A DNA stretch of 34,398 nt. Origin: Candidatus Sulfotelmatobacter sp. (GTDB lineage Bacteria > Eisenbacteria > RBG-16-71-46). Location: the NCBI GenBank assembly GCA_035498555.1, contig DATKAB010000166.1, positions 1 through 34,398 on the forward strand. Reading direction: 5' to 3'. Shown piece by piece: positions 1,621 through 31,702 of this stretch; within the stretch, counting starts at the first letter, position 1, and each line of letters opens with the position of its first letter. The position numbers were made by a program, and so were the translations under genes. The notes below the pieces were generated by a model. That model saw only the letters and a program-made list of their open reading frames with translations, was not told the DNA's origin and made no database searches.

Positions 1621-2795
1621 TGGGCGGCGAACGCTCGCTGTCGCCCAATGCCGGCATCGGCACCCGCGCGATTCACGCCGGCCAGGAACCCGATCCGACC
1701 ACCGGCGCGGTGACGGTGCCGATCTACCAGACCTCGACCTACGCTCAGGAAGCGCTGGGCAAGAACAAGGGCTTCGAATACGCGCGCGGGCACAACGCCA
1801 CGCGCTTCGCGCTCGAGCGGAATCTCGCCTCCCTGGAAGGCGGCCGCCACGGACTGTGCTTCTCGTCGGGCCTCGGCGCCACCAACACGCTCATGCAGAC
1901 GCTCTCTTCGGGCGACCACGTGGTGGCGGGGAACAATCTCTACGGTGGCACCTATCGCATGTTCGAACGGGTGTTCCGCCGCTTCGGCCTCGAGTTCACC
2001 TACGTGAACGGCGCCCGGGCCGAGGAAGTCGAGCAGGCCTTCACGCCTCGCACGCGGCTGGTGTTCGTCGAGACGCCCACCAATCCGATGATGGCGCTGA
2101 CCGACATCGCGGCGGTCGCCGCGATCGCGCACCGCCATGGCGCGAAGCTGGTGGTCGACAACACGTTCATGACGCCGTTCTTCCAGCGGCCGCTCGAGCT
2201 GGGGGCCGATGTGGTGATGCATTCGGTCACCAAGTATCTGAACGGGCACAGCGACATGATCGGGGGGGCGCTGATCACCAATGACGAGGCCCTCCACGAG
2301 CAGCTCCGCTTCCTGCAGAACGCGTCGGGAGCGGTGCCGGGGCCGATGGACTCCTGGCTCGCTCTGCGCGGCACCAAGACCCTGGCGGTTCGCATGAAGC
2401 GCCACGAGGAAAACGCTCGCGAGCTGGCCGAGTTCATGACCACGCAGAAAGCGGTCAGCGCCGTGTTCTATCCGGGACTCCGCTCGCACCCCCAGTATGA
2501 GCTGGCCCGAAGGCAGGCCTCGGGGTTCGGCGGCATGATCTCCTTCATCGCCGGCGACGGCTCACTCGAGTCGGGCCGGCGGGTCTTCGATCGGTTCACG
2601 CTCTTCACGCGCGCCGAGAGTCTCGGGGGCGTGGAGAGCTTGGTGTGCCACCCGGCCTCGATGACGCACGCCTCTGTGCCGCGCGAGACCCGGCTGGCGA
2701 TGGGCTTCGCGGACGGCCTGCTGAGGCTTTCGGTGGGTATCGAGGACCTCGTCGATCTCAGGGCCGACCTGGATCATGCGCTCCAATGCGTTTGA
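1620..2795 (+). CDS. cystathionine gamma-lyase / gamma-synthase family PLP enzyme
   Basis: This 391-residue fold-type I enzyme belongs to the Cys/Met metabolism family. Paired with cystathionine beta-synthase it most likely cleaves cystathionine to cysteine, 2-oxobutyrate and ammonia. Visible family marks are Y54 and R56 of YARGHNAT (contacts to the neighbouring subunit's PLP phosphate), the NLYGGTYRMF segment near 105, D180 in VVDNTF (pyridine nitrogen contact), the Schiff-base lysine K205 in HSVTKYLNGHSD, and the C-terminal SLGGVESLVCHPASMTH block. The ATG overlaps the TAA of the upstream gene by one base. The open frame extends further upstream, but that part is antisense-like shadow of cbs. 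Sequence alone does not separate lyase from synthase; the operon partner favours lyase. Confidence 0.9.
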   Translation: MGGERSLSPNAGIGTRAIHAGQEPDPTTGAVTVPIYQTSTYAQEALGKNKGFEYARGHNATRFALERNLASLEGGRHGLCFSSGLGATNTLMQTLSSGDHVVAGNNLYGGTYRMFERVFRRFGLEFTYVNGARAEEVEQAFTPRTRLVFVETPTNPMMALTDIAAVAAIAHRHGAKLVVDNTFMTPFFQRPLELGADVVMHSVTKYLNGHSDMIGGALITNDEALHEQLRFLQNASGAVPGPMDSWLALRGTKTLAVRMKRHEENARELAEFMTTQKAVSAVFYPGLRSHPQYELARRQASGFGGMISFIAGDGSLESGRRVFDRFTLFTRAESLGGVESLVCHPASMTHASVPRETRLAMGFADGLLRLSVGIEDLVDLRADLDHALQCV

Positions 2796-2847
2796 TTCCT
2801 TGGGCTTGCGAGTGCTGACCCAGCTCCGCTCGGGACCCCGATGCGGG

Positions 2848-2876
2848 TTGACAAGCCGGGGAGGCATCCCTAGTCT
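2848..2876 (+). promoter_or_regulatory. candidate sigma70-type promoter, TTGACA-N17-TAGTCT
   Basis: A perfect TTGACA at 2848-2853 is followed after 17 bases by TAGTCT at 2871-2876. Transcription would start near 2883, about 50 bases after the end of the gamma-lyase gene and outside any gene. It would drive the structured RNA that ends at the terminator 2985-3011, and with read-through the lipoprotein gene beyond. Confidence 0.5.
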
Positions 2877-2882
2877 TCCGGC

Positions 2883-3011
2883 GCTTCGACTGTGAGTACT
2901 CCCGATCCTCCGGCGCGAAGCCACCGTGGGGGCTTTGAGTATTCAACCCTTCCGTTCGACATGAGCAGGGACGCTGCCGGCCCCAACACCGCTCCTGAGT
3001 GGTGTTTTTTT
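2883..3011 (+). ncRNA. candidate structured RNA (small RNA or leader with terminator)
   Basis: About 129 bases lie between a good promoter and a strong intrinsic terminator, and I see no coding frame in them. GAGTACTC at 2894-2901 can pair with GAGTATTC at 2937-2944 (eight pairs, one G-U). AAGCC at 2918-2922 pairs with GGCTT at 2931-2935 inside it, and GCAG/CTGC around 2965-2977 may form a small hairpin before the terminator. The element could be a stand-alone small RNA, the structured tail of the cbs operon, or a transcription-attenuation leader for the lipoprotein gene 90 bases downstream. It does not match a riboswitch class I can recognise by eye; I compared it mentally with c-di-GMP-I, fluoride and SAM types. 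Confidence 0.4.
2985..3011 (+). terminator. intrinsic terminator
   Basis: AACACCGCT at 2985-2993 pairs with AGTGGTGTT at 2999-3005 and beyond (nine pairs, one G-U) around a CCTG loop. The 3' arm runs into a stretch of T bases at about 3005-3011. In this GC-rich sequence it is the clearest Rho-independent terminator of the window. It would end the cbs operon read-through and the candidate RNA. Confidence 0.8.
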
Positions 3012-3040
3012 CTGTCATCGAGTCCACATCAATGAATCGG

Positions 3041-3077
3041 GTCGCCTGGGAACGACTACTTAAGATTCCCGGGCGGC
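3041..3077 (+). promoter_or_regulatory. 12-bp hairpin in the lipoprotein leader
   Basis: GTCGCCTGGGAA at 3041-3052 pairs with TTCCCGGGCGGC at 3066-3077, giving twelve pairs with two G-U, around a 13-base AT-richer loop. The hairpin ends ten bases before the strong ribosome site AGGAGG at 3087-3092. No T tract follows, so it is not an intrinsic terminator on this strand. It may act on translation or mRNA stability. The loop also holds TAAGAT-like bases, so a promoter overlapping this site is possible. Confidence 0.45.
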
Positions 3078-3097
3078 GTGACCGAGAGGAGGTGAAT

Positions 3098-3292
3098 GTG
3101 AAAGACATGCGCAAGATGTCCGCTCTGGTGATGGCCTCCCTGTTGGCCCTCGCCCTCGCCTTCATGGTCGCGAGTTGCGGCAAGAAGGCCGAACAGACGC
3201 CGGCTACCTCGGAGTCCTCGACGAGCTCAATGCCGTCCGACAGCACGATGCACTCCGACTCGGCTATGGCCGACACTTCCATGCATCACTGA
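3098..3292 (+). CDS. small Met/His-rich lipoprotein, function unknown
   Basis: This 64-residue protein has a basic N-terminus (MKDMRKM), a hydrophobic stretch (about residues 8-23) and a lipobox VASC ending at C27. It should be exported and lipid-anchored. The mature part is only 38 residues, rich in Ser, and its last twenty contain repeated Met and His (MPSDSTMHSDSA, then TSMHH). Met/His-rich tails can bind copper or other soft metals, but that is inference. The start is set by AGGAGG at 3087-3092, five bases before this GTG. A GTG at 3092 and an ATG at 3107 are in the same frame. It is preceded by a terminator and a long hairpin, and followed by its own hairpin, so it looks monocistronic. 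I do not recognise a named family. Confidence 0.7.
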   Translation: MKDMRKMSALVMASLLALALAFMVASCGKKAEQTPATSESSTSSMPSDSTMHSDSAMADTSMHH

Positions 3293-3329
3293 TCGACGGC
3301 CGGGGCGACCTGGACGTGTGTCATCGGGA

Positions 3330-3356
3330 GGGGAGCGCCTGCAAAGGACGCTCCCC
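3330..3356 (+). terminator. hairpin after the lipoprotein gene, probable terminator
   Basis: GGGGAGCG at 3330-3337 pairs with CGCTCCCC at 3349-3356. CCT and AGG extend the stem past a bulged A around a GCAA tetraloop. The following bases are GTCCTGTTT, a poor T tract. It lies 40 bases after the lipoprotein stop and before the ribosome site of the next gene. Confidence 0.5.
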
Positions 3357-3458
3357 GTCCTGTTTGAGCCGATTCGCTCAGCTTCGATTTTGGCCGGATC
3401 GCGCAACCCCAGGCGCCTGGTTGCCGTAAGGGGAGGCAGCCCAGGGAGGACGGAGCCG

Positions 3459-31416: not shown

Positions 31417-31502
31417 GGAGGGATGGCCGAGTGGTTTAAGGCGCCGGTCTTGAAAACCGGAGAGCGAAAGCTCCGTGGGTTCGAATCCTACTCCCTCCGC
31501 CA
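31417..31502 (+). tRNA. tRNA-Ser (anticodon TGA)
   Basis: The acceptor arm GGAGGGA at 31417-31423 pairs with TCCCTCC at 31492-31498. The anticodon loop CTTGAAA is flanked by CCGGT and ACCGG and gives TGA, reading UCA-type serine codons. A long variable arm (GAGCGAAAGCTC) and GGTTCGAATCC confirm a class II serine tRNA. The CCA end at 31500-31502 is encoded. Confidence 0.95.
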
Positions 31503-31511
31503 GAGCATTTT

Positions 31512-31603
31512 GGAGAGGTGGCCGAGTGGCTGAAGGCAGCCGCCTGCTAAGCGGTTGATCGGGTAAAACCGATCCGGAGGTTCGAATCCTCTCCTCTCCG
31601 CCA
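31512..31603 (+). tRNA. tRNA-Ser (anticodon GCT)
   Basis: GGAGAGG at 31512-31518 pairs with CCTCTCC at 31593-31599. The loop CTGCTAA between CCGC and GCGG gives anticodon GCT for AGC/AGU serine codons. A long variable arm (GATCGGGTAAAACCGATC) marks the class II fold. CCA is encoded at 31601-31603. It lies nine bases after the first tRNA. Confidence 0.95.
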
Positions 31604-31625
31604 GTCCCCGCCGCGGAATCTGGGT

Positions 31626-31702
<77 letters not shown>

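Follow-up and report, generated by a model that had tools for sequence, protein, structure and literature searches.

Which mechanism governs the short intergenic region that precedes a tiny lipoprotein gene in the window (the whole stretch of 34,398 nucleotides analysed, contig C166 of the 3.8-Mb draft genome G000)? The gene (3107–3292, + strand) encodes a lipoprotein of 61 amino acids with a signal peptide, the lipobox VASC and a tail rich in S, T, D and M. The alignment of orthologues at MRK makes the ATG at 3107 a more likely start codon than the GTG at 3098. Searches of the protein against Pfam and NCBIfam gave nothing over the cut-off, the PG1828 family lipoprotein of NCBIfam being a weak match below it. 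On the upstream side lies a cystathionine gamma-synthase/lyase-like gene (metB, 1620–2795, PF01053), itself preceded by a cysteine-synthase-like gene with PALP/CBS domains; on the downstream side are found a DUF4097 gene and one for a bactofilin-like membrane protein. Farther away, the window carries a cluster of tRNAs for Ser(TGA), Ser(GCT) and Arg(ACG) (31417–31702). A preliminary description of the region had listed a promoter, several stems, an intrinsic terminator, a 12-bp hairpin and a ribosome-binding site ahead of the lipoprotein gene, all of which are present where it had placed them. Their significance was assessed against 20 genomes from the family of the window genome (f1) and against other families of its class, including f5. 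The lipoprotein or its leader is present in every one of the 20 f1 genomes and, more weakly, in several other families.

The promoter (2848–2876, + strand) consists of a -35 element TTGACA (2848–2853), a 17-nucleotide spacer containing GGGG..CCC, and a -10 element TAGTCT (2871–2876). Sequence upstream of the leader exists for 19 of the 20 f1 genomes, the exception being G012, where the contig ends. All 19 have the arrangement TTGACA-N17-TAG(C/T)CT, with GTGACA once, or in its general form [T/G]TGACA-N17/18-TAnnnT; the -10 element is mostly TAGCCT and never TATAAT. The same plan is shared by all five f5 genomes and the promoter is also carried by other families of the class, a conservation that exceeds chance and bears out the promoter originally proposed. 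Judging from its position, transcription would start near 2883, about 7 nucleotides past the -10 element, which defines a putative 5′ leader of the lipoprotein mRNA (2883–3106, + strand) of similar length in all genomes: the distance from the predicted start site to the ATG is 181–224 nucleotides in f1 and 169–186 in the five f5 genomes. In G010 and G011 a gene for a heme-motif protein replaces metB upstream and the promoter is retained, which indicates that the element belongs to the lipoprotein and not to metB. The leader unit always precedes the lipoprotein gene, also where metB is absent, so that the conserved synteny anticipated at the outset does exist. In a DNA search of 59 relatives, the best matches were the promoter, the segment from GCAGGG to the terminator, and the Shine-Dalgarno region.

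Two further observations concern promoters of this type. The spacer between the -35 and -10 elements (2854–2870) contains GGG..CCC in 12 of 16 f1 genomes, against 0.7 expected on shuffling, and this feature is possibly an operator or a property of GC-rich promoters. In addition, TTGACA-N17-TAGCCT recurs as a second promoter elsewhere, with a spacer that resembles this one and mostly reads TTGACAGA..CCTGA..CGCCTAGCCT (G013:C81, G001:C15, G016:C433, G018:C135, G019:C826, G015:C311 and G017:C232), where it probably belongs to another conserved gene.

The leader contains an intrinsic terminator (2985–3011, + strand) formed by a 9-bp stem, a loop of four nucleotides and a T run, with the sequence AACACCGCT-CCTG-AGTGGTGTT. 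It is the better of only two terminator-like matches in 8 kb. The preliminary description had considered it the best of the window, and the comparison adds that its stem is above chance, present in a single copy and conserved as far as f5: the stem energy reaches z values of -2.3 to -4.6 in 13 of 18 f1 genomes and in 5 of 5 f5 genomes. The string CACCGCT-loop-AGTGGTG followed by five T occurs once per genome in six f1 genomes, at this locus alone. Variants with an intact stem include AGCGGTG in G008, GGTGGTG in G006 and CGCCGCT in G004, while in G005 (CACCGGT/ACTGGTG) both sides are changed and the pair is kept. Changes consistent with pairing, of the kind that had been asked of the relatives, are seen in this stem, from C-G to G-C in G005 and from U-A to G-C in G009. 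In f5 the terminator is mostly CACCGCTG/CAGTGGTG, after which stands TTTTGCTTT or a sequence close to it. The arms CACCGCT/AGTGGTG are near-invariant in f1 and f5, the G-U wobble included, a comparison that rests on hairpins taken genome by genome. The hairpins that follow the same lipoprotein gene, by contrast, vary freely: in the window a terminator-like hairpin is formed by GGGGAGCG/CGCTCCCC (3330–3356, + strand), and the relatives have similar G-rich hairpins of variable sequence at this place.

As a dispersed DNA operator, CACCGCT..AGTGGTG was rejected, with 12 occurrences in the 20 genomes, 10 of them here, a number below that of a reversed-pattern control. A GTDB-wide scan for the pattern returned two matches in Eisenbacteria at this locus and one (L075) in an unrelated context; the others, mostly in Brevibacillus, are presumably unrelated terminators.

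Between the terminator and the gene, a 12-bp hairpin (3041–3077, arms 3041–3052 and 3066–3077, + strand) precedes the Shine-Dalgarno sequence AGGAGGTGA (3087–3095, + strand), whose GAGGTG is kept in all f1 members but one. In each of the 18 f1 genomes examined, the 55 nucleotides before the Shine-Dalgarno sequence have a fold more stable than the average dinucleotide shuffle (mean z -1.9, with a Stouffer value of -7.9 that is not a probability given that the genomes are related), and the stems differ clearly in sequence from one genome to another. The 12-pair hairpin of the preliminary description exceeds chance in f1. When the pairing is evaluated cell by cell, 76% of the cells pair, against 33–45% when the partner is slid; covariation by pair counts is weak, in alignments that put some of the stems in the wrong place. 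For the same reason, as MAFFT misplaces stems, a covariance model built on the RNAalifold structure (R1) was useless, with 3 pairs. A second model in which the stem was supplied (R2) finds the site in 18 of the 20 f1 genomes at E<3e-4, and fails to realign the long-loop stem of the window genome. Among these 18 is G019, a genome outside its training set; the promoter, CAGGGACG and the terminator stem were then all recognised upstream of the site detected there. The best match of R2 outside f1 lies in f5 (E 0.0015); the folding test did not show the hairpin in that family.

The upstream part of the leader behaves differently. Folded alone, the leader of the window genome is unremarkable (z -1.5 and -0.8), so that comparative evidence is needed to separate real structure from chance. 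The eight-pair long-range stem of the preliminary description, in which GAGTACTC (2894–2901) pairs with GAGTATTC (2937–2944), is present, but it does not survive this evaluation: 146 of 500 shuffles contain an equal or longer stem and the region has a z of +0.58. Across 23 genomes, the fold of the region from the start site to the terminator is no more stable than that of shuffles (z -1.5 to +2.0), the region contains no conserved helices, and no segment of the leader pairs consistently with either terminator arm beyond shuffles, as an antiterminator would. A protein-mediated switch of the terminator would be compatible with this result. A leader peptide was also considered and, judged by eye, rejected, since the 47-codon frame at 2892 crosses the terminator and lacks a Shine-Dalgarno sequence, and inspection of the relatives by eye revealed no shared start codon. 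The leaders of G002 and G010 share an extra conserved block, GGCGCTCCTGCC..CG.CA.GGAAGTGC.TCGC, together with a second CANGGAAG site.

It had been proposed that a promoter of the lipoprotein gene located after 3011 would speak against control by the leader. Downstream of the terminator and before the start codon, no promoter-like site beats shuffles in any of 23 genomes, and for this reason read-through is the most likely source of lipoprotein expression. Moreover, about 8 of the 19 f1 genomes have a degraded U-tract (G001, G002, G003, G009, G010, G013, G016 and G018), and these genomes retain both the promoter and the lipoprotein gene. Because of these two observations, the reading that we favour, with reasonable though incomplete confidence, is that of an attenuated mRNA leader of a monocistronic lipoprotein gene, in which the terminator sets the output. 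The locus has the layout of an attenuator, with a promoter and then, in the untranslated leader, a GC-containing hairpin and a U-tract. Transcription would begin near 2883, and a fraction of the polymerases would halt at the terminator, probably giving a leader RNA of about 125 nucleotides, as the positions of these signals suggest. The polymerases that read through would produce the lipoprotein mRNA; there, the hairpin at 3041–3077 would shield the segment immediately upstream of the strong Shine-Dalgarno sequence. The terminator would act in this way as the attenuator that fixes lipoprotein output, and in this family a CsrA/RsmA-type protein may bind CANGGANG ahead of it and modulate termination, decay or translation. 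The anatomy, its conservation and its tie to the lipoprotein are observed; the start site, the termination and its efficiency, the dependence on read-through, the binding of CsrA and the high abundance of the lipoprotein are inferences. The preliminary description had left the choice between a small RNA and an attenuation leader or riboswitch; attenuation is the part that is favoured, a separate small RNA gene is not indicated, and a riboswitch finds no counterpart in a conserved fold or an antiterminator.

The same signals might simply be the constitutive equipment of an abundant lipoprotein, namely a promoter, a stabilising 5′ hairpin and a perfect Shine-Dalgarno sequence, the terminator-like hairpin being a leaky or neutral relic or serving to end read-through from metB. 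The Shine-Dalgarno sequence and the promoter are indeed the most conserved parts, metB is usually located upstream, and the loss of the U-tract in so many f1 genomes is a point in favour of this reading and also one against an attenuator. However, the terminator arms are near-identical between f1 and f5 even though the two families cannot be aligned over the remainder of the leader, and G011 has the terminator without metB upstream; we regard this explanation as unlikely. The main structural rival is a stand-alone small RNA (2883–3011) acting on other targets, with the lipoprotein expressed separately from a cryptic promoter. A promoter and a terminator do enclose about 125 nucleotides, and the arms of the terminator are far more constant than needed while the hairpins after the gene vary, which suggests a sequence-specific partner. 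Nonetheless, a second promoter for the lipoprotein was not found, the element always precedes this gene, across genera the RNA body shows neither conservation nor structure, and several lineages that lost the U-tract keep the promoter, so that the small RNA appears slightly less probable still. Finally, a new class of metabolite riboswitch, to which the long leader with its terminator, the adjoining sulfur amino-acid genes and the lack of an Rfam match might point, is very improbable given a pre-terminator region that folds like shuffles without conserved helices, the absence of any alternative partner that pairs consistently with the arms of the terminator and a long-range stem at chance level. 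Concerning Rfam, covariance models at the gathering threshold detected only the three tRNAs across the window, and a permissive search (E up to 10) of positions 2700–3450 yielded nothing meaningful, in agreement with the first reading of the RNA, which had recognised no family.

For the attenuated leader, a candidate ligand is suggested by a conserved segment, GCAGGGACGCTGCC (2965–2978, + strand), whose core CAGGGACG (2966–2973) fits the CsrA/RsmA consensus CANGGANG. This consensus is present in 13 of 19 f1 leaders, and in the shuffle test in 12 of 18 against about 0.6 expected, a count that measures conservation and not 12 independent events, the sites being orthologous. It lies 19–26 nucleotides before the terminator arm, and its two N positions vary, as CsrA tolerates; count, spacing and this variability alone constitute the evidence, the other positions being fixed by the search. 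The strict consensus is absent from G003 (a near miss), G004, G006, G008, G015, G017 and f5. The SELEX consensus is RUACARGGAUGU, and ANGGAN hexaloops have been described as the structural motif (PMC7652899). In local folds of many of the genomes, GGA falls in or beside a small loop, but its predicted unpaired probability in the full leader ranges from 0 to 1, a mixed picture of its accessibility. The csrA gene (PF02599) is found in 18 of the 20 f1 genomes; it was not found in the drafts G005 and G010, both of which have CANGGANG. The window genome has two csrA copies of canonical sequence. These two near-identical genes (L091, 2166–2417; L092, 2699–2947) are each located near a histidine-kinase-like gene. 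On these grounds, a CsrA-type protein as the ligand of the leader is a tentative proposal, for which the odds are a little less than even. It is a good deal more speculative that such a protein, beside the intrinsic terminator, gates lipoprotein read-through with the invariant arms as a second recognition element.

This type of control is familiar and the example is new. With the 5′-UTR intrinsic attenuators, or premature-termination leaders, mapped in E. coli (PMC7815308) the locus shares the plan of a promoter, an untranslated leader, an intrinsic terminator and the gene, and a terminated leader RNA is expected. The present case differs in coming from an uncultured phylum, in having no detected antiterminator and in the unusual constancy of the arms. 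A second likeness is to the leaders bound by CsrA/RsmA, of the glgC, pgaA and hcnA type (PMC7652899; PMC3791407), since CANGGANG lies in the leader here too, local folding could in many genomes place its GGA in the loop of a short hairpin, the AGGAGG of the downstream Shine-Dalgarno sequence offers a possible second GGA, and a canonical CsrA is encoded. Unlike those targets, the leader usually has one clear candidate site, about 120 nucleotides from the Shine-Dalgarno sequence and beside an intrinsic terminator; the case of CsrA and termination covered in a review, pgaA, is Rho-dependent (PMC7652899). As for the gene product, the signal peptide, the lipobox, the short low-complexity tail, the strong Shine-Dalgarno sequence and the gene's own downstream hairpin recall Lpp in the logic of expression. 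Lpp is a small and abundant lipoprotein of the outer envelope; the present protein differs in matching no family over the cut-off, and its abundance would follow from these signals.

The leader is a conserved regulatory element absent from Rfam that can be followed across genera and families, in a phylum, the Eisenbacteria, that is to our knowledge known from environmental genomes alone. The near-invariant arms of its terminator are a puzzle, as their constancy goes beyond the needs of a terminator. Through this leader the cell can probably throttle the amount of the lipoprotein, and the element suggests a link from CsrA to a lipoprotein of the cell surface that can be put to the test.
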